The notes below the pieces were generated by a model. That model saw only the letters and a list, made by a program, of their open reading frames with translations. It was not told the DNA's origin and did not search any database. Positions 2,929 through 41,319 of a stretch of 64,000 bases of DNA are shown one piece after another; positions within the stretch are counted from its first letter, which is position 1; the number at the start of each line of letters is the position of its first letter. The translations under genes were made by a program, and so were the position numbers. The DNA comes from Meghimatium bilineatum. Its lineage: Eukaryota; Mollusca; Gastropoda; Stylommatophora; Philomycidae. The stretch spans positions 11,705,391 to 11,769,390 of the forward strand of contig CM067319.1 of NCBI GenBank assembly GCA_034231615.1, given 5' to 3'.

Positions 2929-2970
2929 GAAACAATGGTGACGACGTCTAAAATATATAGGAATAAAAAC

Positions 2971-4242
2971 TTACTCTTCTGATAACTCATCGCTGTCACT
3001 AGAAGGATAGCCATAGCCATGAGAGTCTGAAAACCAAGGATATTCTGCATCCTCTTCATCAAATTCTTCATTATACTCATCGTCTTCATCATACAATGTA
3101 TCATCTTCAATTTCCTGTTGATGAATTCCTTGCATCCTCGGTATTTCACACTCAGATCTCATGCCTTGCCTACCTTGAGTCATCCGTTGGTGATGATGAA
3201 CTGGAGGCGCCTGTTTCTGACTTTGCTGCAATGGCATTCTAGGACCATCTTGTGGACAATTATCAGTTTGTAATCTGTTTGACTTCTGAAGTAGATTTCG
3301 ACTAGCATTCTGAGCTTCCTGACCTTGATTAGGAGAGAAGTATCGAGGCTGACCAAGTCGAGGTAATCTTGTCTGAGGCCTTATGGTTGGATTCCTGAAT
3401 TGCGGAACAACTTTTCTTATACCTTGGTTCAAATTGGCAGCATCTGTTGATTTAGAATGAACAGGTGTTTGTACTTGTGTATTTCCTATATACTGTTCAC
3501 AACCAATAGCCAATTGTTGAGGTATAGTTTGATGCTGAGATGATTGCTGAGGTGTAGTCTGATGCTGAGATGACTGCTGAGGTGTAGTCTGATGCTGAGA
3601 TGACTGCTGAGGTGTAGTCTGATGTTGAGATGACTGCTGAGGTATAGTGTGATGCTGAGACGGCTGCTTAGGTATAGTCTGACGCTGAAAGGCATGTCTA
3701 ACAGTCTGCATATTTGAAGACAAAGGAGTTCTTACAGACTGAGGACAACGAGGGGCCCTAACTAAATTTAATGTCGGTCTCAGATGACCGGGCTGCTGTG
3801 GCCGTGATACAGGAACATTCTGCTGATTATTTAATGATTGATTCTGAAGATGACCAGGAGAGAGAGGCGATGCAAATGTGTGATTGTTATTCACTGATGT
3901 CACCGGCCTGACTGTTCTAGATAACCCTTGAGTCTGAGTAAGTTCTTTTGAAAATTGATGATTGCTGCTAGTATTCTGCTCATTTTGCTTTATATTTGCA
4001 GCTCTGTTTGGTGTTTGCTGAGCTGTGGTCCCCTGATGCTGATTAGACTGAGAATCAGACATGGCATTTCTTTTATAGTTGGCCATCTGTGATGTGTTTG
4101 GTGACTGACTAGCGTGTTCGTTATTCTGTGAGTTGCTGTCAAATTTTGGCTTCTGTTGTGTCTGAGTAAAACTTCGCTGTTGTCCAATAGATAATGGTTG
4201 AAGTGTGTCCGAAGGACTTGGAGATTCTGGTAAACGATCAGT
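2971..4242 (-). CDS. Terminal coding exon of an unrecognised Q-rich protein with acidic C-terminus
   Basis: The exon is read on the minus strand from a CAG acceptor (4243-4245, preceded by a T-rich tract in that direction) to a TAA at 2971-2973, giving 423 codons without a break. An ATG lies at 4086, but the frame stays open up to the acceptor, so this is more likely a last exon than a whole gene. The product is rich in Gln, Ser, Asn, Pro and Thr. A 10-residue repeat of the form HQTTPQQSSQ occurs about five times near its middle (DNA 3526-3690). The last ~60 residues are strongly acidic (DDTLYDEDDEYNEEFDEED) with Tyr, Trp and Phe, ending SDELSEE. No catalytic domain or transmembrane segment is visible. 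Low-complexity Q-rich plus acidic segments are common in transcription or RNA-processing factors, but I do not recognise the family and assign no function. Earlier exons should lie at higher coordinates and were not found. Confidence 0.7.
   Translation of the reverse strand, partial: TDRLPESPSPSDTLQPLSIGQQRSFTQTQQKPKFDSNSQNNEHASQSPNTSQMANYKRNAMSDSQSNQHQGTTAQQTPNRAANIKQNEQNTSSNHQFSKELTQTQGLSRTVRPVTSVNNNHTFASPLSPGHLQNQSLNNQQNVPVSRPQQPGHLRPTLNLVRAPRCPQSVRTPLSSNMQTVRHAFQRQTIPKQPSQHHTIPQQSSQHQTTPQQSSQHQTTPQQSSQHQTTPQQSSQHQTIPQQLAIGCEQYIGNTQVQTPVHSKSTDAANLNQGIRKVVPQFRNPTIRPQTRLPRLGQPRYFSPNQGQEAQNASRNLLQKSNRLQTDNCPQDGPRMPLQQSQKQAPPVHHHQRMTQGRQGMRSECEIPRMQGIHQQEIEDDTLYDEDDEYNEEFDEEDAEYPWFSDSHGYGYPSSDSDELSEE
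3526..3690 (-). repeat. 30-bp coding minisatellite inside the Q-rich exon
   Basis: A 30-bp unit (tgctgagatgactgctgagg plus ten more bases) is repeated about five times with a few substitutions. Because 30 is a multiple of three the repeat stays in frame and encodes HQTTPQQSSQ-like decapeptides. Copy number probably varies between individuals, but this is inference. Confidence 0.85.
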
Positions 4243-4800
4243 CTGAAAATTAAAAGTAAATCACAACTTTAGATACAGTGACTGAAGGAATCTGACATGC
4301 TGGCAAATGGTCAATCTGAATATTAATTGTATCACAACTTTAGATAGTGTCCGAAGGAATCTGACATGCTGGCAAATGGTCAATCTGAATATTAATTGTA
4401 TCACAACTTTAGATACAGTGTCAGAAGGAATCTGACATGCTGGTAAATGGTCAATCTGAATATTAATTGTATCACAACTTTAGATAGTGTCTGAAGGAAT
4501 CTGACATGCTGGCAAATGGTCAATCTGAATATTAATTGTATCACAACTTTAGATACAGTGTCCGAAGGAATCAGACATGCTGGCAAATGGTCAATCTGAA
4601 TATTAATTGTATCACAACTTTAGATACATTGTCCGAAGGAATCTGACATGCTGGTAAATGGTCAATCTGAATATTAATTGTATCACAACTTTAGATACAG
4701 TGTCCAAAGGAATCTGACATGCTGGCAAATGGTCAATCTGAATATTAATTGCATCACAACTTTAGATACAGTGTCCCAAGGAATCTGAGATGCTAGCAAA
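4204..4800 (-). repeat. ~71-bp tandem array derived from the exon/intron junction of the Q-rich gene
   Basis: About seven copies plus a partial one follow the exon boundary. The first unit (4204-4276) is the real junction: exon start, CAG acceptor and end of intron. Each later unit repeats the same layout. Read on the minus strand, each has a 'tattcag' acceptor-like site followed by a 13-codon segment (I/T-D-H/R-L-P...P-S-D-T) that aligns with the true exon start TDRLPESPSPSDT, then the intron-like 'aaagttgtgat' stretch. Some units have GTATCT after the PSDT codons and so could act as a donor; others (for example around 4346 and 4486) lack it. Confidence 0.8.
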
Positions 4801-4876
4801 GGCGCAAATCTCACAGCAAAGTTGTAAACTACGACACAATTTATTCCGTTCACGAACAAACACATAAGATAAAACA

Positions 4877-5300
4877 CGATTAGGTTACAGATCTAGGGGA
4901 AGGCAAAGAAAAATATGGATAGATACCATCAGAGGGTGAGGTTGTAATTAAGTACGGGGGAGGGGGTCCCCGGAATTTACAAGGTGGGAGAAGGGGTCAA
5001 AAATTGACAACACATTATTGGCACAATTTCTATTATTAACAATCTCTGTGATGTCAGTTCAGATAATCATAGCCAGAGGGTAATCCCCCTCCAAGTACAT
5101 CATTAAAGATCATTATGTCTGTCTATTGCTGGAAGCCTAAAGTGGAGCAAAGAATAGTAACACTGTGACCTGCCATGCATGTCATCAGAGGTGATTAAGG
5201 AGGTTTCGTTGTAGAATTGTTTTGTTCTATATAGGGTGCTTCATTTATTTGGTGTCGAAGGAAAGCATTTTTCTAAGATTAATCAGTACTGGACATTTAT
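4877..5300. other. No gene seen; partial SINE family B piece
   Basis: The stretch is probably intron of the Q-rich gene. About 5145-5215 resembles the 'gcaaagaatagcaacactgtgatctgcc' part of SINE family B on the plus strand. A short G-run occurs at about 4958-4990. Nothing else is recognised. Confidence 0.45.
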
Positions 5301-5640
5301 AAAGGTGATGGACAGCAGTTTCATAAGTGCACACCCAACACCCTGAAGTGTGATGTGGTTGTATTCTGTTCAGGGATTGTTAAGCTGTACATGTTGTGTA
5401 GAAAGTCGGAAGATGGTAATCTGGTCTTTCCTTCCCAGGAGGTTGATGTCTTGGAATTTGGGCTGGTCATATATTTATAAATTTCTCTTCCAGTGTTTCC
5501 CATTGCCCAATTGTTCAGCTAAGACATCTTTGTTCACAAATTTCAACATCTTTTTAACTGTGTGCTTTGTCGTTAGGTGTATGGCTGTTCTTATCTTGCT
5601 CCCTTCTTTGTTAGTCTATCTGCATTGCCATACTAATTAC
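5300..5640 (-). mobile_element. LINE C-terminal fragment (family with RNase H, 42.8-kb type)
   Basis: On the minus strand the translation contains 'MGNTGREIYKYMTSPN' and matches the plus-strand copy at 42820-43236. It is interrupted by stops. It is the region after RNase H in a LINE ORF2. Confidence 0.7.
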
Positions 5641-7140
5641 AAATTCTGTAACCTGTTACAGAGTTGTAGGGGTACCACATTGGAACCATCAGCACAATTA
5701 GCCCCACAACATTCCTTTCCTTAGCGATATGGAACAGCATGGAAAAATCATGCATTGACATTTCTTTGATGTTATCAACTCAATATTTTCTTTCCACCAT
5801 TATTCTTTCCACCCTCAACTGCTCCCTGTAGGATATTTTTGAGTGAATTGTGTCTCCATTACATGTCAAAACAACACAAGCTTACACCGTTCCATAACTG
5901 TCAACATCCTTTCCTGTCTATCTGCAAGATCTGTTATTTTGTAATCATAGGGAATAAGTACATATGTATTAATTACAAATACCTACCACTACTAATAAAA
6001 AAGATGATAAAAACAATTATAATAAAATGAATAAGGACAAAACGATTGACATTTCGATCTAAGACATTTGTCTGAACAAACATGTTAGAATAAGAAAATG
6101 AGTAACAGAGAAAAAATATTAATTTAAAAATATTTTTTTCTAATTAAACAGTCTGTATAATGACCTTCAGAAGGAGTGACTTACTTTTGTCCTTCATCAG
6201 GTCATTACATGGACTGTTGATTTATTTATTTTTTAAAAAGATGTTTTTAAGTTTATATTGAAAAAAAATATTATTCATTGTTTTATTATATGTTCAATCA
6301 GACACATGCGGTTACATCTGTGGGGCTTACTAATGGTCCACTAAACAAACCACCATGCAACAGAAAACCTTAGTAGATGACATGCCGTTATACTGAGACT
6401 CTTATGGAAGCTTTGTAGTATGTCATCTATACAATTATAGACACCCCCCCCCCAGTAGAAGGCTCCTTCAATAGGCATTACACAAAGCCAAAAGCTGAAG
6501 ACTCCTGAGTATGAAAGAAAGCTCAGAAAAACCATCCTATTGCATATAGGAAGTAAGAGCAATTCCTGGGGGTTCTCAATCATCAACCAATCATGTTCAT
6601 TCAGACGAAGATCATAAATCAAATCATCAATCATTTTCATCCTTACTCATTTTATTATAATTGATTTTTATCATCTTTTGATAAGCAGTGGTAGGTATTT
6701 GTAACATTTACTTATTCGCTATAATTACTTTGGTATTTTTTTTACTACGGTCCATACCTGACTGTTGGATCTTCTCTGGTTATTGATCGTTAAATATAGA
6801 TTTTTTTGTCTCTGAGAAATACATTTGTTTTGTGTTTTTTACAATAAACTTGTACCTCACATCTGCAACACTTGTATTCAAACACTTGAACTGCGATTTG
6901 TGTATCATCAGTGATTGTACAATCCTCACATCCATATAAAATAATAGAACTAGTGAATTGTTCTACTTACTGAAGTACTGATTGCATTTTTCCAAATCAC
7001 ATTCAACCTTGCATAGATTCATCCCCAAGCTTTTCCAAGCTTTTAATTTTAACACTACAAATGCCAACATTGCATAGCTGGGACCGGAGGTAGAAATTAG
7101 TCATACAGGGATTTGAACGCCTGTTTGATGATTGATACCA
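5640..7140. other. AT-rich stretch, no gene recognised
   Basis: Short T- and A-rich runs dominate. There are a few weak resemblances to LINE 3' ends (5660-5700) but no coherent reading frame, exon or RNA gene that I can support. Confidence 0.4.
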
Positions 7141-7152
7141 GTACACCGGTAA

Positions 7153-7222
7153 TCTCCATGGTGTAGTGGTAAAGGCAATTACCTTAGACCGGTATGGTTA
7201 TTAGTTCAAAATCAGAGCATGA
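7153..7222 (+). repeat. Degenerate tRNA-like head of a SINE
   Basis: A box-A-like 'tggtgtagtggtaa' is followed about 45 bp later by a box-B-like 'agttcaaaatc'. The spacing fits a tRNA-derived pol III promoter, but B box and stems are too decayed for a functional tRNA. No full SINE body could be bounded. Confidence 0.4.
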
Positions 7223-7299
7223 AGTCGTGATTACAACTGCAATTCCTTGTAAATGTATGTCTCTGTAAATTATAACATGAACTACTGAGTTGCTAGCTC

Positions 7300-8097
7300 T
7301 GAAATACATTTAGCAATGCGTGCGGCAACTTTATTCACTGACATTTCCCCTAATTTGGTTAGCGAGCGGCAAGTATAGTTGCAGTCGTAGACTGCCGTTG
7401 CTAGGCACACGTCAATAAATTAAAAATCCCCTTTTTACAATATTTTTTTCCCAGATTTGTTAAAATGTCATGTAAATATTGATATTTTCAAATTATCATT
7501 AAAATAGAATTATCATTAAAATCATTATGGATTGTGATTCAAATGATTATTTATGGAGAGATAAGTTATTTCCACACTCGAAAATTAGTTACACCACACT
7601 GCTTTATCTAAATTGATATTAAAACATCAGCCATGTTCAAACGATACATTTACAGACTAGATCTAGGTTTATAGAACGATTTTAAGACATACCTGTAAAT
7701 TTAATCCTTGTAATCCTTGAAATTATAACGATTATCCATTGAATAGTGCATGATTTAGGTCTATGTAAGAGTGTTTCCACTCCAGAATATTTATAAATAA
7801 TGTAATAAACTTTGTACAAATAAATTATCGTTATAAAGGTCAAAATTTGCTGGGGTTTTGTGGAAAATCATCTTTGAAACTGTCTTACATGTCTCGTATC
7901 ACACACACACAAACAAAACCTACACCAATATATGCAAAGTTCAATTCTTTATTTATATGTGCAAAAATTATTTAAATATCTCTAACAACAAAAAGTTATC
8001 ACAATTTCAAAAGAGCCACCAACTATTACGTAACATTTCCAAAAATTAATTCCAATGCAGGAGAGAAATTACGTAATTATAAACAGAGTGCTAAAGG
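7300..8097. other. AT-rich stretch, no gene recognised
   Basis: I see no conserved exon, RNA gene or mobile element here; short open frames look random. Confidence 0.4.
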
Positions 8098-8101
8098 TTA
8101 A

Positions 8102-8310
8102 CCCCTTAGCTGCGGAGGTATTCTTAAGGATATAAGTCACCATCATTTTGTTGAGATCATCCTCTTCTTAGCTATCAAGGGAAAAAAATCCATCTGGAAG
8201 CTTATAATAAAACATCCAGACAAATTTTGTTCCTGGGAAACTAAGAAGATCTCAGCAAAATAGTGACAACCCCTCATCATATCCTTAAGGATACCTCCAC
8301 GGCTAAGGGG
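8102..8310. mobile_element. MITE flanked by TTAA (piggyBac-like)
   Basis: The 209-bp element has 32-bp terminal inverted repeats beginning CCCCTTAGC. The left repeat (8102-8133) and right repeat (8279-8310) match at about 29 of 32 positions. It is flanked on both sides by TTAA (8098-8101 and 8311-8314), the target duplication of piggyBac-type transposons. It has no coding capacity. A second, broken copy lies at about 27245-27604. Confidence 0.85.
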
Positions 8311-8319
8311 TTAAATCAC

Positions 8320-9690
8320 AAGACCCTGGGAATGCAAAGGTATTCATATTGGTCTTGTGTGATTCTTAGGATAAGCAGATAACCAAGACCCTAAAAACAT
8401 CTCCTTATGGTCTATCCCAGTAACAGTTTCAAAGTGTGGCCAGTGCTTTGGAGATCAACTTCGGGCTATGTAGACAGAGATAGAATGAAAATTGCACACA
8501 AGACAAAAAATATCTATAACAAGTATCTCTTCATACCTACAGCTTAAAAATATTATACCCGAACAGTGTACCCTGGTATTCTACTTCCTAGTGGCTGAGT
8601 GAACCAAGGGAGTAATTTTGGTTTCAAACCACAAATAACAAGTGAACTCGAAACTCAGATCTGCTTGTTGGTTAACAAGTGACTTAACACTACTGAAGAT
8701 ACCTAAAAGCCCACTGAGTACAGTATCTACAGTGAAGACAGCACATATTTAGAGAGCGGTGATTGGTGCAAGTGGTTGTATACTTGTAACAATTGAAATA
8801 TGGAAGCCATAATGAAGATAGATTTTATGGTCAATAGCAACATTTTTAGGAAGCAGTAGAAAAGCAAGGAGTAGATAGCCATATTGTTCCAATCCACAGA
8901 AAAATGTGTGTAGAAATGTAAACTTGGATGAGGTGCTCATGATGTTGGTGAATTAAACCTCGGCTAAGAGGGTGAACTAACTATAGTCTAATTCTACTGT
9001 CAAGAGTTTGCTATACTGGAACCAGGCTCTCAAAGGATAAATGGTTTTGTATCCATTGGCATAAGGATCAGTTACTTTTACCATTACATGAGATCAGTTC
9101 ACATACAGTGGTACAGTTAGTGTGAGATAGACATAACTGACCCACATCCAACTCCCTGTCTATCACCCAGTGACAAAATGGTCTAAAAAATCCAAGGTCA
9201 CAGTGTTGGCATAGTGATTAAGCCATTGCCTTGTGTTCAAGACATCATATGTTCAATACAGGGTCGTAGTGTCTTGTTTACAAGTGCCTTTGATAATATT
9301 CCTGGAGATTAACACTTGAAGCTACAGAGTTATGTAATGTGGGTAGGATTCTTAACAGACAGCATGAGTAAATATGGGAAAACACAAATACAATGACATC
9401 AATCCTCTATGCCTTTTGCACCCAGTGAGCCCACTAAATTAAGATATTTATTCACAATTTAAGCTATCATAATTTAAATACAAATATACATACCATTATG
9501 TTCTATTAAATTCCCTTCATACTGGTTTTCTTGAAATCTGACTTTTTATATCTCTATTCTTGTTCTATAGATAATTGTAGAACTCTGTTCAGACTTGTTA
9601 CACCTTCAACAAATAAATTGGGAGAGAGATGAAAAATAGGATTACAAATTAGTTAGTCATCAGATCATCATCATGGCACCCTGAACATAT
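8320..9690. other. No gene recognised; one tRNA-like SINE remnant
   Basis: About 9203-9265 has a box-A-like 'tggcatagtgattaagc' and a box-B-like 'atgttcaatac', resembling the remnant at 7153. The rest shows no coherent coding or RNA signal. Confidence 0.4.
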
Positions 9691-9692
9691 TC

Positions 9693-9750
9693 CTGTGACA
9701 GTTTGTGAGTTTTGTGTGTATTTTCATACACAACTCACAAACTGTCACAG
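9693..9750. repeat. Near-perfect 58-bp hairpin
   Basis: CTGTGACAGTTTGTGAGTT (left) pairs with AACTCACAAACTGTCACAG (right). The pairing continues inward with about two unpaired bases, leaving a loop of only a few bases. It could be a tiny palindromic element or a hairpin RNA source. No transcript evidence is available from sequence alone. Confidence 0.8.
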
Positions 9751-9804
9751 AAATCAATTTTAAAATTACACTTTTTGTTTATGTCTAGTATTGTATCATT
9801 ATTG

Positions 9805-9845
9805 CTCTGATAAAGATAATATTCCAAAACGTTAGTTTGTATTTT
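9805..9845 (+). repeat. Possible Penelope-type terminal repeat relic
   Basis: The 'ctctgataaagataatatt' stretch followed by 'aaaacgtta' resembles the degenerate hammerhead-like motif found in the terminal repeats of Penelope-like retroelements. It is short and no reverse transcriptase lies nearby, so the call is weak. Confidence 0.3.
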
Positions 9846-10069
9846 CTGTATTCTTCTTTAATATTATTATGTTCCTTAACTTTTAATTATTAACAGCAGT
9901 TTTTTTTGTAACACATATGTACCTACCTATATAATATTTACTTTGCTATCTGCTAAAGCACACAAGGAAAGTTGACGGATAGGCTGACAACCTATCACCT
10001 GTGAGCAAATCATTGTCATTGCATGTCTTATCTCAATCTCTTACTTCTGTCTTATTCATTGACTCGCTG

Positions 10070-10500
10070 CCTAACAGATGTGAGAGTTGGAAAATTACAG
10101 CGGAAATGGAGAGGAAAATACAGGCTTTTGAAAACAAATGTTACAGACGAATATTGCACATCCATTATATGGAACATAAACCAACATATATGAGAGAAAC
10201 AAAATAAATACTATCCTTGCATGAAACAAGAACATCTCATGGTAGTGATGAAATGCCTCAAACTTGTGTGGTTTGGTCATGTGATGAAGTCCGATTCCCT
10301 TTCCAAAACTATCCTACAGGGGACAGTTGTGAGTGGAAAATTAAGAGGAGGTAAATAGAAAGTTTGGAATTATCATATTAAAGCTGGACAGAATTAAGAT
10401 TCTCCACACTTAAACAAGGAACTCAGAACACAGAGGCAAGGTGGGAGTTTTGTGTTGATGTTTCCAGCGTAGCATCCCTACAACCCTGAATGGTGATGAT
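10070..10500 (+). mobile_element. LINE 3' fragment (RTE-like), decayed
   Basis: The translation contains 'CESWKITAEMERKIQAFENK' followed by 'LKLVWFGHVMKSDSLSKTI', the typical region downstream of the reverse transcriptase in RTE-like LINEs. Stops occur after residue ~68 and a frameshift follows. Confidence 0.75.
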
Positions 10501-10524
10501 GAGTTAGCACGGGAGTACCTTAGA

Positions 10525-11480
10525 CTAAAGGAGTAAACCAATACAGAAAATCCAGAGGGGAGACCCTAATGTAGTCAATGCTGTATTAAACCATTGTCTG
10601 GCATATCCTGCAGTTCTGCTTGTTTCCAAACTTTTTGCTGTTGCTTTTCCCTTGGAACTAATCAACAGAGCCAAGAGGGGATTCATGAAAATTGGTACAG
10701 CACTTTCTCCATAAAACCTGCCCAGACAAGCAATCATGTGTGAGCCAGTGACTATGCTCCCTGCCCATCTGTAGAGACACAAAATGCCATCTGCTAAAGC
10801 AAGCATATGATGTAATGATAGTGAGACCTGTTTGTATCTAATGCATCACCAGACAGGGATTTGAAAATGGAAAAGAAATTAAGCTGTTTCATGAGCACCT
10901 GCAGCATGTAAACACTGCTACTGATGAGATGTTTCATGAGCACCTGCTGCATGTAAACACTGCTAATGATGAGACATCTAGAGTTATATTTCAGTATTGA
11001 ATGTGGCAGCAGTAGAACTGGATACCTGCAGGGCAGAATAAAGAAAATCTTCAAACAGCGAGCCACAGGAACGATCAGCACACATATCCTTTTTCATCTT
11101 CTAGGGGAGTCTGAGGAACTATGAGTTTGCCTGGAGTGCAATGATATTGGTTAATTCTTCTTCTGCAATCAATTATTATACATCTAGTCTGATTTTGATC
11201 ATGTATATGGAGTTGTTTGTTTAGGTTGCTGTGAGTCCTCCACAGTTTGTTTGCAGTGACACTCCTGTGGGTCAGACTGCTATTCTGTGAACATCATAGC
11301 TAGGACAGTCCTATAGTTTTTTTTCTGGTGCCTGTGTTGTTGCGCCATGGATACATGATGCAGTGTTGCTGATTCAGTTTAGTGCTTATAGTCGACAGTG
11401 TTCCGTTCTTAATCAAAATATCGTTACTTGTTCCTTTCGGTTAAATGTGTTGATGTTGTCTTACTCGGGTTTGTAGTTGC
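10525..11480. other. No gene recognised; short local duplication
   Basis: A ~42-bp unit containing 'gtttcatgagcacctgc' is present twice (about 10889-10972). A 93-codon minus-strand open frame (10525-10806) has no recognisable motif and is not called a gene. Confidence 0.4.
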
Positions 11481-11499
11481 CATTCAGTTCTTTCCAATG

Positions 11500-11999
11500 A
11501 ACTGTCTCATTGATTGTTTTAACAGACTCAACTTGCCTGAAACTTTGGCCACCTGAATCTGAGAGATTATCTCCAATTTTTGCAAATTTGTCTGTTTTTT
11601 CGTTGCCAGAGCATAGCCATTCTGATAAAAATACAAGTCCTTCTCAGTTGAGTAGTCGAGGTGATACTCAAACTCACATAAGGTTGTCTCAAAGGCATGG
11701 TTGTTCGGGAGAGGGTGTATTGATGCATCTATAATCCCTGGAGAGAGACATGCCAGTGCAGCAGCATCATGGGGTGTCATCACATTCTGTCAGGAGTGCA
11801 GCAAACACTTCTGGACCAACTAGCTCACAATTTTGCTGTCAGATCTGTTGACCCATATGCAGTGATAGCACATCTACAATTTCTAAAACAGGAGAGTTTA
11901 TCACAAAAGGGCATAAGTTCTCTAGCAGCATCTCTTCATCATTCAAGGGGATCATTTGATAGAAGAAAAAGTCAGAAATTAAGACAGGACATGCAGTGA
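11500..11999 (+). pseudogene. Unassigned coding-like segment with frameshift
   Basis: Two plus-strand open frames follow each other: about 11510-11734 (Ser-rich, containing 'SDKNTSPSQLSSRGDTQTH') and 11769-11999 (containing 'NFAVRSVDPYAVIAHLQF' and a basic end 'RRKSQKLRQDM'). The composition looks like real protein rather than random AT-rich frames. The frame change between them suggests a decayed retrocopy or element ORF. The overlapping minus-strand open frame (11484-11783) is probably a shadow. The family is not recognised, and an exon of an unknown gene is also possible. Confidence 0.3.
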
Positions 12000-12029
12000 C
12001 AATGAGGTTTTTTTCCACAAATGGCTGGT

Positions 12030-12180
12030 TGTTTGCCTATCACCCAATTTTCCTTAGTCGCTTCTTACCACATGCCTGAAAATAAGACAGTGGTCCTATT
12101 CTTTGCACCCTGAAGCAAAGTAACACTGCTACCTGCCAAGTATGTTGTAGAAAGCAACTAAGGCAGTTGATGAGGCGTTA
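12030..12180. repeat. Two partial SINE family B pieces in inverted order
   Basis: The first half (about 12035-12105) matches the 'cttagtcgcttcttaccaca...gtcctattctttgc' side of the repeat on the minus strand. The second half (about 12108-12175) matches the 'gcaaagtaacactgctacctgcc' side on the plus strand. Confidence 0.5.
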
Positions 12181-13029
12181 ACCACCCTACCTATGATGTC
12201 TGCTGTGATGAAGCATGCTGTAAACCCATTTTTGGACTGCTGGAAGAGAATCAATCCTTTTATTTACAGTATGCCTTGATATTGCAAGAAAGTCATGACA
12301 AAGTCCGCTACAGAATAGAAGACTGTGCAGCTCTGAGCATTTAACCCTACATTAACATATAAAACAATCTACTGGAACTAGCAAAATCTTTAGAAAATGT
12401 TCCCATCAAAAAAAAAGAATGTCAGAGAAACTTGAACCTGCAGCTCAAAGTACAACTCCACCTCCTTGTATAGGAAATAAGAATCAAAACTCGCAAGCCT
12501 ATTCCCTTTGGTTGTATTATTATTATTATCAATATCAACAGATGGCTCAGTGTACAGTAAGGACGATCTACTGAACACATTTCGGTCACTGAAAACTTAC
12601 ACAATCTTGACTAAACGATTGCAAGTCTGTGGTATCTTATTATATTTCTTATCTTCTAACATCTTCATTGGACCAATGCTTGGTGATTGCTTGACTATAT
12701 AATTAAATAGTAAATAACAGGCCTAAGGTACATTTCCATTTTACTTTTATATTGAATAGGAGCCTATTGGTCAAATTGACCACAGTGAATTAATTCTAGG
12801 TGGGTTCTGCATCTGACATTTTCTAATTGCCACATAACCAAGGAGGACTAGCTCTAACATTCATGGTGATGGTAACAGGAACGTACTTCAAGCATAGTTG
12901 TATAAGAGTGCCATATGTTTCCTTCCCTAATTCTGTAAGTAAGCTATAGCAACCTCATAACATACTTTGTTTATGTCCAGTTTTGGTTGTAGAGAAACCA
13001 TGTAGATTGTATGGACTGTGGTCAAAAGC

Positions 13030-13385
13030 AGCCTATGATTCTGCCAGTTGTTGTAGGCTTTTCATGTTATTAGGTGTGACTGATGAAGTGCATAAGGGTC
13101 TGTCTATCCAGTATCACATGCTGCAATTTCATCTAAAATGCCTTTATATTCCATTTGTCATTTGAGTAGGGTACCAACTATCACGAAGTCTGTGACTCTT
13201 TTCAAACTATAACTACTCACAGTCACAGCAGTGCCATTTTTTTTTTTAATACCACTGAGATTCTGAGAATTGAGTCTTCTAGGAATGAAAGAAAACTCTG
13301 AAGAAACTTCCCCAATGGCAATGCAGACAGGAATCAAGAAGTTTATCACTTTATCTCTTGTAACTTCTGATGATCTAAACAAAGT
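13030..13385 (-). mobile_element. LINE reverse transcriptase fragment
   Basis: On the minus strand the translation reads 'NGTAVTVSSYSLKRVTDFV' followed by a 'VGTLL' stretch. This resembles the 'I..VTDFKYLGSTLS' region near the end of the reverse transcriptase domain in LINE ORF2. It is isolated and truncated. Confidence 0.5.
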
Positions 13386-13559
13386 TCTGGACAGAATATT
13401 GTATTTACTTTATTTAGTTGTAGACCTAGTTTACTTTTGCTAAAAATTAGACCTACCTATACCAAATTTAATAAGTGAAGAAGTACATTGTACATATGAT
13501 CTGACAGATGTCTGTGAACAGATACTCAAATTCCCTACTTAAGTGTTTGCTGGACCTGT

Positions 13560-13970
13560 CGTAGTTTCATCCTTGAATGAACACTTTAAACAGAACAAGA
13601 AGAGATCATGTGAGAAATTAGGAGATTACACGAACTGCTGGAACAGTATCAGTGATCAGTGTTCAATTATATTGAAGAACAGAGACGGAATGAGAAATGG
13701 TTCGGCCACCTAATCATAAGAATGAACCCGCCATATTGGCCAGCGACAAGACTCGAGAGCATAAATAGACCCTGCAACATGAAAACAGCAAGATAGAGGA
13801 ATACCAAGAAGAAAGTGGATTGAAGGAGTTACCAATATTCTGACCTGACGGTACAGTATCACTGCATATCAAGCGATCAAACGTGCCATAGCCCGAAAAC
13901 CGATCGTCACAGCAATAAACAAAACAGCAAAAGCAGAGGAAAGACAATTGTGTAGTCTACGAAGATATTG
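13560..13970 (+). mobile_element. LINE 3' fragment (RTE-like)
   Basis: The DNA around 13695-13760 (aaatggttcggccacctaat) encodes the 'KWFGHLI' motif common to the LINE C-termini in this window. 13800-13830 encodes a decayed 'GIPRRKWIEGVTNI'. Frameshifts are abundant. Confidence 0.6.
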
Positions 13971-14239
13971 TGACATTTTTGCATAAATATTTATCTCTAA
14001 CGATCCACCCATAACAAATATTTAAAAGCAGAATATACCTTGTAGAAATCATCAAGAAAACAAACAGTGATGCATGCATTATCATTATGATTATTTCACT
14101 TTTATCGCAAACAGAAAGCTTGAGAGGAAATGGCAAATTAACATTTTGGATTGTTTCCCCTTCACGGCTACGTCGTACATCGAAGAATATGGAGAACTTC
14201 ATTGAACGAGAAGAAAACAAAGAGGTTCAGACAACACTG

Positions 14240-14510
14240 TATGAAAATAAACTATTATAGGAAATATAAAGCAAATAATATTTTGGACATATTAAGAGAC
14301 ATGGCACCTTGTTTAAGACATATGTAAGTTAGAATTGATGGGCGGCGAGTAAGAGAACGCAGATAGAATGGGAGGGAAACATGAGACAGACGCTGTCTTA
14401 TCTAGCAGAGTACACTACCATTTCAAGAGACAAGATGTTGATGGTCCGTTGCAGCCAACCTTCCATACGGAGACGGCACCTTATGATGATATCGCGCATT
14501 AGTTTATGTA
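14240..14510 (+). mobile_element. LINE 3' end (17-kb/55-kb family)
   Basis: Contains 'ttttggacatattaagagacatggcac' and ends near 'gttgcagccaaccttccatacggagacggcac', the same ending as the copies at 46640-47040 and 55160-55630. It is heavily decayed. Confidence 0.65.
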
Positions 14511-14531
14511 CATTTTATGTGACCTATACTG

Positions 14532-14591
<60 letters not shown>
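14532..14591. repeat. (TA)n microsatellite
   Basis: About 30 uninterrupted TA units. It lies just after the LINE end. Confidence 0.98.
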
Positions 14592-14594
<3 letters not shown>

Positions 14595-14905
14595 GCTTAT
14601 TCGTTAGCGTTCATTGTCAATTTTCAGCTGGATTTCTCTTGTAACAATGTCATAGGACTATTATATTTTCAGCTTATCAGCAAATTACAGAAGGAGCTAC
14701 ATGCAATTTTAGAAGCATCAAATTCAATAGAAGAATGGAGACTCAAATGAGCATAAATAGTCTTCCTGCGCGCGACTGTATGTAAGTTCAGAATTCTCCA
14801 GACCACTCAAAATGAATCTATAGATCTAGCAAAAACAATCTTAAAACTTTTAAATCAATATTTACTAACAAAAAAGTGGTTTTGTAGTGGATACCTGCCA
14901 ACTAT

Positions 14906-15195
14906 GAAATTGTATCTTCTTCTTCTGTGTCCGTTCTCAAACTCCTGCAGATTAGCAGGATGTAGTCCGGAGAACGAAATGCGTTAGTCATGGTTTACAG
15001 CATTGCTGCAATATCTGCGCCTTTCGGCCTGACACATCCGACTTCAGCATGGCTTTGGGTCACTGACGGATGGGACAACCAACTCCACCCCATAACCCTC
15101 TTAGTTGCCTTTTACGACAAGCGTGGAAGGTAAACAGTGTTGCTATTCTTTGTATTCTTTGCTCCCCTTTCGGGCCCCGGGAACACACGGGCGTG
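14906..15195 (-). mobile_element. SINE-like repeat, family B, near full length
   Basis: About 285 bp in minus orientation. From its 3' end (left) it shows the cttcttct tail, 'ctcaaactcctgcagattag', 'caggatgtagtccggagaac', the 'gcgcctttcggcctgacaca' block, and the 'ccaccccataaccctctt' to 'gctcccctttcgggcc' 5' part. At least five other full or partial copies occur in the window. It has no coding capacity. The 5' head is not an obvious tRNA. Confidence 0.75.
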
Positions 15196-15299
15196 AAATT
15201 GTATGAAATGCGGTAGCTGGCAGACTGGCAAAAGCACGTAGAACAATTCCAACACAAAATATCACTGACTCAATTAAAAACTACAAACATACATTGAGT

Positions 15300-15665
15300 C
15301 AGACATTTGGAGCAGGCAGCAACTTTCCACTAGACCCCATCCTTAAGCTGAACAGATCATAACTAACTAACGTCTTCGGGCTCCACACATGACACTTTAG
15401 ACTACAAGCACATCTCCACAAAATAAAGGCTGTTCAAACTGACCAATGTCTATGTCAAATGGGTCCCAGAATCTAGAAACCATTTTGCAAACATGTCAAC
15501 TCTTTGGCGTCTTGAGGATCTAAATCTGATTTCAAAGGACAGAACTGGAAGGCATCTGAGCATAGGAAACTGGCCACATAATTTCTAGCACGATGTAAGC
15601 AAGCAAAACAATCCTTATGCTTGTAGTCAAGAGAACTGAGGGAAATAAAAATGTATCCCATATCA
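15300..15665 (+). mobile_element. RNase H LINE C-terminal fragment
   Basis: The DNA 'cacttt-agactacaagcacatctccac' and 'gggtcccagaatctag' matches the minus-strand copy at 63640-64000. There the same region encodes 'FRLRTGHCRLQAHLHKM' and 'QTPEHILQTC', the conserved zinc-binding-like tail of these LINEs. Stops are frequent here. Confidence 0.6.
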
Positions 15666-15819
15666 TCGTTTCTTCTTCTTCGTTCAGCTTCTGTGACCAT
15701 GCCAGGATGTCAAAATTGTCATCAGGGCGAAATTAACTCTTGATTTTGCTTCAAATCTGTATTTCCTGACCAGACTCGTGGTCTATGCTCTGTGTGTGTT
15801 GGGTAGTTTTGAAGTATGT

Positions 15820-16090
15820 ATCATGAGTTTAGATTCCAGATCCACATGGGCGTTCGTCTGTGTACGAAATACTTAGTTGGTAGAGCTGGCCCAGCAGTCT
15901 GCAATGGCCTTGTTCTAATGCGAAATAGTGTGACTTGTTGATGTTTTTGAAAACAGTATATTGCCTTGCGTATGTCTTCCATTTCCATCGTTTCCTCCAC
16001 TTTGGCGTGTGTGTCTTGCGTGGATTATTCCTTTTTCGCTCTATAGTAGAATGTGTGTAGGTGGTGTTCCATTGCACTGTCCGTTCTTAA
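15820..16090 (-). mobile_element. RNase H LINE C-terminal fragment
   Basis: On the minus strand it encodes 'LEQGHCRLLGQLYQLSISYT' followed by DE-RPCGSG, closely matching 'RTGHCRLLGHLYRLRISYT' at 34140. It is truncated at the CGSG step, before the HILxxC part. Confidence 0.8.
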
Positions 16091-16479
16091 CAGAGCATCA
16101 GATTTTTTTAAATTTCCCATGATTCCAGAGTGTGAGTACGTCCAATGAAGGTTAACAGCTGATGACTTTTGGATATATACCGAAGCCCTTGTCTGGTGTT
16201 CTGCAGAATGTTTTCATTTCTGGTACTGGATTTATTCAAGTAGTGATCTGCGTTCAGTAAATATGACTATCTTATGCGGTATTTGTAGTTTTGATTCTTT
16301 GAGGACTTGCAGTGCATAATGGATTGCAACAGTTACTGATCAAACGTTGGTAGCAGGGCAATAGATGTGATACCGTAAGGAGGAGGTTTTACCAATTTAA
16401 AAAAAAAAAATCTTTTTGTGAAAAATTGCCAAAGGTGGTGTTGTTTTTTTTAAAAATCGAACTTTAAGTTAGTTAAGTA

Positions 16480-17765
16480 CCTAGTGCTAAAATTCATGTT
16501 AAATTTGCTAAGGAGGAGGGGGTTTCAAAACCCCAACTCCTCTATGCACGGGTCTGGATGGAAGAGTTTAAATATTTATAGTGATATATTGATATCACTA
16601 ATATGCGAGAATACCGATGACAAAGATGTTGTTATTTACACGGACGGGTCGGTCATCCGTCACCACCGATGCTCATGGGCCTTAACTGTCAGATCAAATG
16701 GAAGAACAGTACACGAAGCCAATGGTACATTTACCACAACAACGAGCAGTCTAACAATTGAAGTATTCGCTTAACTCAATAACTTTACTGGCTGGAATCA
16801 CAAGCCTATTCCCATGCGTGCATACTAAATGACACACTGAATATTATTCAGAATATGAAAACAGGTGATGTATGTAGGGAATGGGGGAGTCATTCATCAT
16901 CATCAAGTGCCGTCTCCGCAACGAAAGTTAGCTACAACGGATCCCCAATATCCCCTGTCTCTTGTCGTGGTGGTGCACTCTGCTAGACTGTAACCTGTCC
17001 ATCGTGTGATGTTACTCTCCCACTTGTATCTCTGTCTACCTTTTGCTCGCCTCCCTTTGACTTTACCCTCAAGTAAGGTCTTCAATAAAGTGTCATGTCT
17101 TTTAATGTGTCCAAAATATTTTATTTGCCTGATCTTTATTTCTCTTAGTAGTTCTTTCTTCATATTAAGTGTTTTTATCAATTCTTTATTCGTTGTCATC
17201 TCTGTCCATGATGTTCTCCCTATTCTTCTATATACCCACATCTCAAAGGCATCAATTCTGTCTCCTAATTGTTTATTTAGTGTCCATGTTTCTGAGCCAT
17301 ATATTAATATAGAATAGATATAGCATTTTATAATTCTAATTTTTAACCTCGGGGTCATTAGAGAGAGCCAAATGCGGGCACTACTACGAAAACTCACGCT
17401 TATTTTTGTCCCCGGGCACGCGGACGTGGGGGGGAAACGAACGTGCCGACCAATTAACTTGTCTCGCCACCACAACAGGCGGCCAGCCTATGAACCGAGC
17501 AGACAAAAACATTGATCTTCGTGAGTCCTCACGATCAGAGGATTTTGAGATAAATGAGCATGAGTAAATATCGAGAATTAGCAGTGAGGATAAGCGTGGC
17601 CGTAGAGAACCCCTGACAAAGATTTAAAAAAGAGCAGTGCATCAACATAGAACCGGAACCATCAGCCGTTATGCACTGAGAAATTTTGTGAAGTGGAGAT
17701 CGGAGCACCTATGGACATGTCCGGTATGCGAAGAGGATAATCAACATACCTAATACCTAAGTATT
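16480..17765 (+). mobile_element. RNase H portion of a LINE, interrupted by a nested LINE
   Basis: The left part (16484-16774) encodes 'DVVIYTDGSVIRHHRCSWAL', the first catalytic Asp motif of an RNase H domain. The right part (from 17351) encodes 'FVPGHADVGG' and then NER/AD-like residues of the fourth motif. About 17600-17755 encodes 'RTGTISRYALRNFVKWRSEH' then LWTCPVCEEDN, the C-terminal finger. The two halves are separated by an inserted LINE (16895-17350). The same family is seen, much longer, at 35385-38590. Stops and frameshifts show it is inactive. Confidence 0.8.
16895..17350 (-). mobile_element. 5'-truncated RTE-like LINE nested in the RNase H LINE
   Basis: The minus-strand frame encodes 'YIYSILIYGSETWTLNKQLG', 'FEMWVYRRIGRTSW' and '[20 protein letters not shown]', ending with 'VANFRCGDGT' and a GATGATGATG tail at the left. 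It is flanked by ggagtcatt (16886-16894) and ggggtcatt (17351-17359), a 9-bp target-site duplication with one difference. Removing it rejoins the host element. About 150 codons are still open. Confidence 0.88.
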
Positions 17766-17995
17766 TATATATTATCTTCTCGACTTTGAGTCTTATGAAT
17801 ATACCACTCATCGGATACGTACACTTTCACCATTTTATTTACAGATCTATCTGTGTAAACACGTGTCACTCCTTGCAATTGCATTTTAGATCTAGCTACT
17901 CGTTTCAATACATTTAATTGAAATTGAATATTGTGTTCTTCTTTTGTTATTCCCAGAACCTCTAAGATTAAGGAAACTGTTTCATGGCTTCTCAA
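17765..17995 (-). mobile_element. RNase H domain fragment of a LINE
   Basis: The minus strand encodes 'RVARSKMQLQGVTRVYTDRS' (DRS in place of the usual DGS). Position and wording match the first catalytic motif of the RNase H domain. The rest is lost. Confidence 0.5.
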
Positions 17996-19690
17996 TGTCA
18001 GCTAGTGTTTTGATTTATGTTGGTATGTTTGGTATCTATGTGCTGTTGGTGGAGATGTTGCAGAAGCTGATTATCTTCAGCCAGCTTGTGTTTGAGCTAT
18101 AAATGTGCATGCATTGAATGATATGACATGCGCATAATTATTTATATATGGATAAGCACTCTTTCTTCTTGTCTGTCATCCCAATGAACGGGTATGTATA
18201 TATTTTCCATGGCGTGAAATGGTGTTCATCCTTCTGTGATTAGTCGTAGACTTGAATTTTGCAGTTTTAATAGGTGATCAATGTGTAAAATACGGGGAGC
18301 AGTACTTAATTATTTAACGAAACGAAATAGGGACAAATAAGCAATGTTATCATAAATATCGATAAAGATAGGCAGTACGCATTTTACAGTAGTTAGGATT
18401 GGTATCGGATGCATTGATCTGCGCGCCCACCACTGAGAGCCCCCACTCAATTGGATGACCATGGTCACACATCTTTTAATTTTGTAGCACTCTTCGAGTT
18501 TGTAACAAACGTACATCATCTTTATCTGTAGCTGGCAAGCTCAGTAAGCAGACATATCCGATTAAATTGGCCACTTTGTTTTTGTGACAATACTGTTTGC
18601 TAGTGACGAAACAGAAGCTGCGCATACTAAAATAAAGTTAGAATAAACTGCGCATATTATTAAAAAATTTGAATTTAGGTACTGCTTTCTGTATTGTATC
18701 GAGCAATGTTTGTTTTTGATGCCCAAGCTGTCACTCCTTAACCTACTGCAGGTATGACTACCCATATAGACTTTATCTCTTATGGATATAAAGAATTTTT
18801 GTGACATATAGTGCATACGACCACCTAACAAACATCTGGGGAGGGGGGGGGGGGAAAGAAAATACAAGTAAATATAGTAAAACGTTGATAGCATATTCAA
18901 ACCAGCGGAGGTTTCCCCCGAAAATAATTTTATAAAAGAATCATTCGCCCATGTTTTACTGATAAATATCTGTTGGTCGAAACGTTAATTCGGTCTGTTT
19001 TATATGATGCTGAACATATTTTTTCGTGTAATTCAGTCTGCGAATTTGTTCAGATTTACTGGTGTTCTTTGTTTCTACTTTTCGCTAGAACAGCGACCTG
19101 AGGCGGCCTTTGTCCTCACCAATGTTACCACTATATTTTAGAAATAAACCTATATTTTCTTCGGAAAAAACAAACAGAAACAGCCTGCTTATTTTTATGC
19201 CTTAAATTTATGGTAGCATAGCCTATTCAGTAAGTAGCCATCAACTCAGTATTTTTCGCTGTAATTATTTTCTAGCGTAGTAATGTCTTACGGTATTGGG
19301 ATAAATGATGGCTAAATGATCATTTAATGCAGATTTTAAGCAATTAAGTTGAGTTATGTCAACATTGGCTTATTTCTGAATTAGTATTTCATTTTATTAC
19401 TGAAAAATCACAATTAGACATATATAATACGCATATGACTTTAAAATTAAATAAATATTATGTATGAACTCTTCATAAAGAGACATTTTAACATTGACAT
19501 ATTTTCACTTTCCTATATAACATGTTCCACAAATTTAATGTAAAATATTAGTTTGAGCATGTTACTGCTTGTTATGTGTGTTCACCCATCACAAGTGATG
19601 ATGATCATTTGTTACACCACTTTTGAAAATTCAGTTTGAATTATGCCCATGCCTAATATTTTGTAGATGGCCAATAAGCCATATTCGAGT
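17996..19690. other. Mostly unique sequence, no gene recognised
   Basis: Short G-run at 18839-18854. About 18951-18995 contains 'actgataaatatctgttggt' followed by 'cgaaacgttaattcgg', resembling a hammerhead-like motif of Penelope-like terminal repeats with a changed core. No convincing exon was found; upstream exons of the Q-rich gene or 5' exons of ZC4H2 could hide here. Confidence 0.4.
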
Positions 19691-20240
19691 TGCAGTTGTC
19701 CTTGGACAGTTCGGGCATGGTATGACCAATGTAGAATGATTTTGGTTCATCCGTGACTTTCTAGCTACGGTAGGCCTAACGAGCCTTGTGAACAAAACAT
19801 CAGTGGACTGCCTGAGACATGTTCTGGTTCCACGCTCGACTGATAGCCTGTTAGGCAGTCATAAAGTAGGTGATGTCATGATGAGAATGTCTCAAAAAAC
19901 ATACAAGTCTTGTCTAACCATCTACACGTAACGTCTGATATTCGGCGAAATTACGCGTATGAGGCCACGATAGTTATCGGTCCATCGGGTAATGTAGGCG
20001 AACTCCAGCAACGCTTTGTGGTCCGTATCGGGCATGTTGAGACACGTAGAAAACCATGGTCATCCATTGCATCGTACTTCACTTCCCGTCATCTCGATTC
20101 ATCTTGCCACTGGTTTCAAATGAGGTCCGACAAGAGAGTGAGGTCGACGCTTTGCACAACTCCTCCTCACTTTAATCAAAATTCCCAGTGTCACCAAGTC
20201 ATTTTCACATCTACGAAAATTCATTAGCCATCTACGAACT
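19690..20240. other. Unassigned, possibly old retroelement
   Basis: The GC content is higher than in the flanks, and a 105-codon plus-strand frame (19910-20227) is present, but neither strand gives a motif I recognise. Decayed LINE sequence on the minus strand is possible. Confidence 0.3.
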
Positions 20241-20269
20241 TTTATGCATTGTCTGTCATAATTCTAACT

Positions 20270-20545
20270 GAATTGTTAAAAGTGGATATAAAAATGGTCA
20301 TCATCAATTGTGATGGACGAATACACATACAGCTACTCTCCGCTGTTGAGGTGCTGCATTTCTCCTCTTTTCACAAGATGATACGCCCTTTTTGACTGTA
20401 GAGCGCCATGCAGATCTATTTTGTGCAAGTTCTTTTCGTGTATCTTGGTCTATTTCAGTGGCTTTTAGTTAGGTCTTTAACGAGTCCTTGTAGCGCTTCT
20501 TTTGGTCACCTTGCGATCTGCTATAAGTACTGCTTGTTATAGTTT
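20270..20545 (-). mobile_element. LINE 3' end, decayed
   Basis: On the minus strand it encodes 'GDQKKRYKDSLKT-LKATEID', then 'AQNRSAWRSTVKKG' and a stretch ending near 'VFVHHN'. This matches the '[20 protein letters not shown]' segment of the LINE at 28443-28941. One in-frame stop interrupts it. Confidence 0.7.
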
Positions 20546-21054
20546 TTAACTTGTCAATTCACCAACATCCATGGTCACAACTTCTCATTTATGAAGATAA
20601 TATTCATCTATGTTTTGACAAAGAAGGATCTTGGTTGTGAAATTATAAAATCTGTGCATATCTCAAATGCAACGTTTTTAATGTACATCTTCGATCAAGC
20701 CATTACACAGTTTTAAAGTACAACTAATTCAGTCTTGTTGCTTTGCGTGGCCAGTATAAGATTCAAAACTTTTTAATACAAAAGATCGTTTCTTGATTTC
20801 ATTTTAATTAATCTAATATCGGTAAGCACGACATCTTCGCAAGCTGAGGAATGAGGCAGCTACATAAGTGTGCACATGCGAAGCGCCAAGATATCAAATT
20901 TATTCTAGCTGTTAGTGTATTTTATTTCTTGTAGCCTCCATTAGAAAGTAGGAGGATCATTATTCACTTTCATTACTGCGTGTTTTCCTGTTAAGTAGTG
21001 CAGGGAGGCAGTTACGGCTGTTATTCACTAGAAGCCAAAAATCCCTTGGTATAA

Positions 21055-21150
21055 TTCTTCTTCTTCTCCTTTCGTTCATTGGAAACATGTCTATATTTGT
21101 AATTCTGTCTCCTGAATAAAACTCACTGTCTTTTGTATCGTGATATAATA
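21055..21150 (-). repeat. SINE-like repeat family C fragment
   Basis: The cttcttcttctcctttcgtt start and 'acatgtctatatttgtaatt' block are shared with 49376-49450. The tail lies at the left, so it is on the minus strand. Confidence 0.55.
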
Positions 21151-21497
21151 ATAGTTCTTATCATGGTAACAATAGTCCTCATAAAACCGACTATGAAAGT
21201 TCTCTTCTAAAACAAATGTCGAGTACTGCTCGGCTAATGGAAAGATAGGTATAAGGTTTTCTGATCTTGAAAACTTTCTTTGCAACCAATAGCTGCATTT
21301 TCATTAGATATCTTTTTAAAAAAATGTGCATGCGAATTGAAAGGCAGTTCCCCCATTATAGCACAGTTTGTAAAAATAAAATTTAACCTAAGTGGAATTT
21401 CGTAAGTAATCAACAATTTATAAATAACTAACCAAGATAAGGTTTGTAGGATTCTACGTCTCAGTTAGAATTATAACATTCAATTAAATTGTCTTCT

Positions 21498-21765
21498 TCT
21501 TCTTCTTTCCTTCCTCTTTTGCCCTTTACGGGTGTCCAGGGAGATGAATGTCCTTGTTTTCGCTTTTCTGACAACTTCAGATAATGTCATTTGGTGTTCG
21601 TTTCTTCTTCTTCTTCAGAGTTAATTCTCAAACTCCCACTGTATCTCTCTTGTAGCAGGACAATTGTCCTTATAAATTTCCAGCAAGATGTAGTCCAGAT
21701 AATGGAAATGCGCTGTGTCGCCGTTTTATTTGCGCCAATGGCTCGACACCTCTGTCTTCGGCGTA
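21498..21765 (-). mobile_element. LINE 3' tip followed by SINE family A copy
   Basis: About 21498-21595 (ttttgccctttacgggtgtc) is the complement of the LINE ending at 42085-42130. About 21600-21765 is a SINE family A copy: a cttcttcttcttc tail at left, 'ctcccactgtatctctcttg', 'cagcaagatgtagtccagat', and 'cgacacctctgtcttcggcg' at its 5' end. Confidence 0.7.
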
Positions 21766-22101
21766 TGGTGTTTGTTTAATGTCTCTTTGATGTTGTCAAT
21801 CCAGCGTACTTGAAGATTATAATATTGTGCATGTAATCATGATTTTGTGCACAATATGTATTCGTTGTAGTTGACAATGATAAAAACATAGATTAATGTA
21901 CAAGTAGTTTTGACCCCAAAAAATTATAACAACCCAGACGGCGGCTAAAACCCCCAGATCTAGGGAAAAGAACTTCAGTTGTGGCATCGCTGGTCCCCAC
22001 GACTGAAAAAAAAACCCTAGCAAAATTAAAAAAGACGAATTGAATACGCAGATTAACAAGGGGAATAACTAATAAACAAATACACTAATATTAATATAAC
22101 C

Positions 22102-22160
22102 ATGGCTGGCGAGAACCAAATACTCATTCTAAATCGACTCGAGAAAATCAAAGAAATACG
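22102..22160 (+). CDS. ZC4H2: ZC4H2 coding exon 1
   Basis: ATG at 22102 in context accATGG, encoding [19 protein letters not shown] plus two bases of the next codon. It aligns with the short N-terminal exon of known ZC4H2 (M-A-[DG]-E...KEIR). The donor is gtgtgt at 22161, not the best consensus but with the correct phase to join exon 2, where CG+T makes Arg. Confidence 0.88.
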
Positions 22161-40639: not shown

Positions 40640-41300
40640 GTTAAACAACGGTATATAACACCAAAGTGAAACAAGCCAAAGAATTTAAATATCTAGGCAG
40701 CATTTTTTCCAAAGATGAAAGACTAGACAGAGAAACAGAAACAAGGTGCCAGAAAGCAAACACAGTGACTTACCAACTTTCACCATTACTTCTTCATCCA
40801 AAGATCAAGATGGAAATTTAAAAAAAATAATATCTACAATTTTTATACCAACACTGTGCTACCAATGTCAAACATGGTCTTTAACAGCTTCGCAGCAAAG
40901 AAAAATCATCACATGTGAAATGAAGTGTCTCAGGAAAGCTGCAATGGTTACCAAACTAGACAAATAAGAAATGAAGAAATTAGGAAAAGAGTTGGTATAA
41001 TATAATGTATCAAACATATTGAGAGACAGCAAGTAAAATGGTTCGGTCACCTTATTAGAATGAAGCCAAACCAAATACCAATAAGAGCATATAATACAAG
41101 AATATCCGGGAGTAAAGTCAAAGGTAGACCATGAAAACGGTGGATAGAAAACATCAAGATAACCTTGAACAAACATGGACTAAATGCAACCTCTGCGACA
41201 CATCTGGCCTTGAAACGACAGCTTAAGATAACACCCCTACGCTTAACGGCAAGTGTGAATGCGATCAACAATCATTAACCTGGGGAAAGACAATAGACAA
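40640..41300 (+). mobile_element. RTE-like LINE 3' fragment
   Basis: Encodes 'STIFIPTLCYQCQTWSLTAS', 'CEMKCLRKAAMVTKLDK' and, after a frameshift, 'VKWFGHLIRMKPNQI'. It ends with 'cctggggaaagacaatagac'. Same family as 2465-2928, better preserved. Confidence 0.82.
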
Positions 41301-41319
41301 TAGATTAACCTGTATGTTA

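Follow-up and report, generated by a model that had tools for sequence, protein, structure and literature searches.

What happens to splicing at an exon whose acceptor junction adjoins a minisatellite made of units that resemble that very junction? The question is raised by a 64,000-nucleotide stretch of contig CM067319.1 (hereafter "the window"; positions are counted from its first letter), in which a tandem array with a period of 71 bp overlaps the start of a presumed coding exon on the minus strand. A first-pass annotation of the locus had described the array as built from the gene's own acceptor and had credited it with a set of additional acceptors. In our opinion, the array is best explained as a "mirage"-type minisatellite, i.e., a junction that was duplicated on its intron side and that would be spliced out together with the intron; we give this reading a probability of about 0.72.

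The array and the presumed exon that it adjoins

Tandem Repeats Finder (TRF) delimits the array at 4205–4800, with 8.4 copies of the 71-bp period and 92% matches. The gene and the array are both carried by the minus strand, and the units read from 4800 to 4243. Seven tandem units (4243–4737), with lengths in this order of 71, 71, 71, 69, 71, 69, and 73 nt, each start after an AG, the G of which lies at 4738, 4667, 4596, 4525, 4456, 4385, and 4316, respectively. Each unit is made up of an exon-like part of 37–39 nt and an intron-like part of 32–34 nt, the final ~17 nt of the last unit being the pyrimidine tract and acceptor of the presumed live junction. At the intron-interior end of the array lies a partial unit (4738–4800, minus strand) that begins within the exon-like half; no unit likeness was detected in the adjoining interval 4801–4900, for which 529 of 1000 shuffles were equally good. 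The seven units are 94.1–98.5% identical to one another and 74.3–77.1% identical to the live junction copy. A 33-nt core pattern, searched with up to three mismatches, occurs seven times in the window, each time inside the array, the expected number being 0; a BLAST search at a cut-off of 0.01 found no dispersed unit copies elsewhere in the window.

The exonic half of the boundary copy (4205–4242, minus strand) is homologous to the exon-like half of the units, the core consensus of which matches 29 of the first 38 exon bases. When a 49-nt piece of the core consensus was compared with 93 nt of the exon, the score, counted over exonic bases only, was 32. None of 5000 dinucleotide shuffles reached this value (mean 13.0, maximum 27), and the best of 3158 other, overlapping segments of the window scored 26. 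The likeness of the units to the exon start is beyond chance. Thus, the first-pass annotation was right about an array of ~71-bp units that carry TATTCAG and a 13-codon segment similar to the exon start, and about its register with the presumed live junction, the AG of which ends at 4243; chance similarity, which it had itself named as a possible refutation, does not account for the match.

The presumed exon (2971–4242, minus strand) is a 423-codon open reading frame (ORF) that is entered in phase 0, encodes a glutamine (Q)-rich sequence with an acidic C-terminus, starts with TDRLPESPSPSDT, and has its stop codon at 2971–2973, just past the last residue. The ORF is probably coding, because its length is well beyond that of shuffled sequences (mean 99 and maximum 213 codons in 1000 shuffles) and its base use differs by codon position. 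TRF also detects an array of 30-bp repeats inside the exon (3518–3688), which is in frame. The period of this internal array is a multiple of 3, whereas the unit lengths of the boundary array (71 and 69 nt) are partly not, as expected for an exonic and an intronic location, respectively.

Beyond the AG at 4243, the frame of the ORF remains open for just 18 nt more, and this closure, together with a good pyrimidine tract, makes that AG a likely acceptor. The site, GATTTACTTTTAATTTTCAG/AC (4243–4260, minus strand, with its G at 4243), scores 7.26 by a generic acceptor/donor matrix, and it falls in the top 3.7% of the 7649 AGs scored in the window. It is quite improbable that 4243 is no acceptor at all, in which case the ORF would be either a relic or a single-exon gene whose start is an ATG within it, with the array merely next to it. 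Such a reading is compatible with the presence of repeated DNA directly downstream and with the searches, which gave no homolog, domain, or upstream exon: the ORF protein has no relatives in Pfam or PDB, and no protein-database relatives at E ≤ 0.001 among 1322 candidates with lengths of 0.55–1.75 times that of the query, so that a full protein of much greater length would have escaped detection. Against it stand the opening of the ORF just 18 nt from the AG and the rank of that AG.

Splice signals in the copies and their consequences

The seven copied acceptors (TATTCAG, 4316–4744, minus strand) score 1.34–1.40 bits against 7.26 for the live site, which is not outscored by any AG within the array. 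The copies rank in about the top 31–32% of the 7649 AGs. Their tracts hold 8 pyrimidines in 17 positions, with a longest run of 2, compared with 12 of 17 and a longest run of 5 in the live tract. Acceptor-likeness of this degree is common: ~31% of the AGs match or beat the copies, and 14 of 15 other chosen TRF arrays have an equally good AG on at least one strand. About seven working extra acceptors in series, as had been proposed, are thus not what the scores of the generic matrix suggest. A CTAA located 24 nt upstream of each TATTCAG is a possible branch site.

Donor-like sequences are also repeated. The first-pass annotation had noted that some of the copies are also followed by a GT that could act as donor. 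A donor-like GTATCT is present in five of the seven units (4271–4698, minus strand; first G at 4698, 4627, 4556, 4416, and 4276), but not in the two 69-nt units, both of which have lost it. Four of these GTATCT sites score −0.56, which places them in the top 46% of GTs, and the fifth scores 1.23 (top 27%). Four units have 32 nt between this donor and the AG that follows, and the last unit has 34 nt, in agreement with the earlier estimate of ~33 nt; a normal animal intron could not be this short. Another donor-like sequence, CAT/GTCAGA, scores 3.85 in six units and 1.04 in one, and it would give a 19-nt exon that is out of frame.

When read in phase 0 of the ORF, the seven copied acceptors meet stops after 41, 31, 64, 14, 64, 14, and 21 codons. 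None of the 35 AGs in 4244–4900 reads through into the 423-codon frame, the longest reading being 69 codons. Use of a copied acceptor would therefore be predicted to truncate the protein, and not to vary the first codons of the last exon, as the first-pass annotation had envisaged; that suggestion has to be given up.

Appreciable use of the copied acceptors, or of other AGs of the array, is distinctly unlikely. Up to 69 codons and a stop would be added on each occasion, so that the protein would lack its Q-rich acidic tail or, if another intron follows, the mRNA would be subject to decay; the amount of full-length protein would then be set by the length of the array. The seven TATTCAG motifs with their upstream CTAA, the early stops, and the presence of array AGs scoring up to 6.13 bits would suit such a role. 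There is also a precedent in human ABCA7, in which the units of an intron 18 variable number tandem repeat (VNTR) carry donors whose cryptic use leads to a premature stop, with one unit reported as retained and array length reported as affecting splicing (PMC5954066). On the other hand, the tracts and scores of the copies are weak, and the mirages described in amphioxus are reported to leave splicing undisturbed (PMC3087553, PMC3902484).

A different use of the units would be as cassettes. A 39-nt, 13-codon cassette (IDHLPACQIPSDT-like) that is open and in phase 0 is formally possible in five of the seven units; four of these five would leave an intron of 174–456 nt to the live acceptor, and their donors score −0.56 (three units) and 1.23 (one unit). 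If one or more units were such an exon, placed in frame before the live exon, the locus would illustrate how the gain of an exon and an intron begins. Tandem copies of splice junctions have been proposed as a starting point for new introns and exons, the amphioxus globin report proposing intron gain of this kind from mirages (PMC3087553), and primate boundary repeats are reported to form novel introns (PMC2812944). Nevertheless, we consider a cassette extremely unlikely at this locus. All five GTATCT donors score poorly and the acceptors are weak, the better donor-like CAT/GTCAGA would give the out-of-frame 19-nt exon, and the open, in-frame state of the units would be partly inherited from their coding origin.

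Both ideas bear on a more general one, namely, that the length of the array is a tunable splicing buffer, with the units serving either as decoy acceptors followed by early stops or as the in-frame 13-codon cassette. We regard this as very unlikely. If it were true, unequal exchange would adjust the dose or the length of the Q-rich protein, and it would do so in a lineage without described mirages. The possibility that the array forms an RNA structure was rejected as well, because a 611-nt fold did not exceed any of 20 shuffles in stability (z = +1.99).

Origin of the array and comparison with known junction duplications

The mirage reading implies the following sequence of events. A source segment of ~71 bp, comprising the final ~33 nt of the intron and ~38 nt at the start of the exon that follows, would have given rise to tandem copies of itself next to its junction, on the side of the intron. 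Homogenization, which is usual for tandem repeats, would then have affected the internal copies, with the exon-proximal copy, presumably the working junction, staying outside it. Splicing would most likely take place at the exon-proximal acceptor, the sole member of the array with a pyrimidine-rich tract, and the entire array would be removed together with the intron. The effect of the array on splicing is most likely small.

The direction of this process is suggested by weak signs. Exon base 8 falls in a CG in the live copy and in a CA in the core, and at exon base 20 the far partial unit shares the base of the live copy against the core; both point to a derived core. In addition, the in-frame coding likeness of the units counts for the junction having come first. 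The opposite order, in which the minisatellite was already present in the intron and held an AG by chance, and the exon took over its edge, so that the exon start would be exonized repeat, is in our view unlikely. It draws on the agreement of the far partial unit with the core at five of the six informative sites, on the frequency of AGs as good as the copies, and on the density of minisatellites in the window. Sixteen arrays with periods of 27–71, hand-picked from 38 TRF rows with short periods and microsatellites excluded, cover 6340 bases, or 9.9% of the window, and where minisatellites are so dense, it is not very improbable that one of them lies over an exon boundary. The bases at positions 8 and 20 lean weakly the other way, however, and a 13-codon in-frame likeness is more simply explained by duplication of the exon start.

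Several observations weigh against the mirage reading. No upstream exon was found, the three minus-strand frames of 4801–24800 giving no Pfam match at 0.01. Further, the matrix on which the difference in strength rests is a generic one. Nineteen other AGs of the array outscore the TATTCAG copies (>1.40), the best reaching 6.13 at 4785, and an AG outside the array, at 4893, scores 11.54 (top 0.3%), which is above the 7.26 of the live site. Of the nine differences from the exon, six affect codon position 2 and three affect codon position 3, which gives no sign of synonymous drift. Finally, of the six informative sites of the far partial unit, five match the core and one matches the live copy, and the polarity is weak for this reason.

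The closest counterparts of the array are the mirages of amphioxus, described as minisatellite-like tandem duplications of exon/intron boundaries in Adh3, BflGb6, BflGb9, TnC, and PGBD5, with units of 10–72 bp in Adh3 and of 150–160 bp in the globin genes (PMC3087553, PMC3902484). Their length is unstable, and regular splicing is reported to proceed unhindered by them (PMC3087553, PMC3902484). The following features of mirages recur here: the unit spans an exon/intron boundary, being in register with the AG at 4243 and with 38 nt of an exon presumed from its ORF; many units hold AG/GT signals (AG in seven of seven, GTATCT in five of seven), which are weak by score; and a homogenized core (94.1–98.5%) stands beside a diverged boundary copy (74.3–77.1%). 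As described for BflGb6, the 3′ end of the intron and the 5′ part of the exon are duplicated, and the boundary unit appears to have escaped homogenization (PMC3087553). The unit length lies within the range given for Adh3. Unlike the amphioxus cases, the present array belongs to a Q-rich gene for which the protein searches gave no relative, and the acceptors of its copies seem to fall short of the live one in strength.

Human genes offer more distant parallels. In CBS, 844ins68 is a 68-bp duplicate of the intron 7/exon 8 junction, the distal of the two sites being strongly preferred (PMC2630376); it shares with our array the duplication of an intron/exon junction but is a human polymorphism with a single extra copy. 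A 31-bp VNTR of the same gene, listed at exon 13–intron 13 (PMC1395315), sits at the other end of an exon and is likewise a human polymorphism. The ABCA7 VNTR resembles the array in that every tandem unit holds a splice signal; its units, however, carry a donor and not an acceptor, and its effects on RNA have been demonstrated (PMC5954066). Taken together, CBS and ABCA7 show that the splicing machinery may either pass over duplicated junction signals or respond to them. Internal tandem repeats at exon–intron boundaries in human segmental-duplication genes can also alter splicing (PMC2812944). They are, like our array, minisatellites at such a boundary, but as reported they are mostly kept in exons or spliced from them, and they belong to recent paralogs with transcript support.

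The array is thus probably a further, well-preserved case of a kind that is already known. A search of the open-access literature found mirage minisatellites in amphioxus only, which is not proof of their absence elsewhere; if the host is not a cephalochordate, the known range of mirages would be widened. Moreover, a dated array beside a live junction, with copies that are apparently weaker, would make it possible to test whether selection on splicing disarms the copies.

Surroundings of the exon and of the array

At the downstream end of the exon, the stop codon of the ORF shares bases with a donor-like AGA/GTAAGT (2970–2976, minus strand) that scores 6.92 and is among the top 1.9% of GTs; for this reason the exon may be internal instead of terminal. 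The closest AATAAA on the minus strand is at 2345. A block just downstream of the exon (2470–2927) is ~75% identical over 488 columns to 40828–41303 and is probably a mobile element.

Just upstream of the array, 78 nt (4815–4893, minus strand) are framed by the AG at 4893 and a donor-like GTGAGA at 4814. This AG is antisense to a plus-strand reading, GRQRKIWIDTIRG, which by eye resembles the reverse-transcriptase tails found in the window, and it may resemble an acceptor by chance, as the antisense strand of a retroelement tail.

No Rfam matches were obtained in the window. Degenerate interstitial telomere-like CTAACC repeats (TTAGGG-type) are detected by TRF at 23981–24176; together with the numerous retroelement ORFs of the window, they would suggest an animal host. 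One ORF of 422 aa (36027–37295, minus strand) has 125 reverse-transcriptase relatives at E ≤ 0.001 among 4430 candidates.
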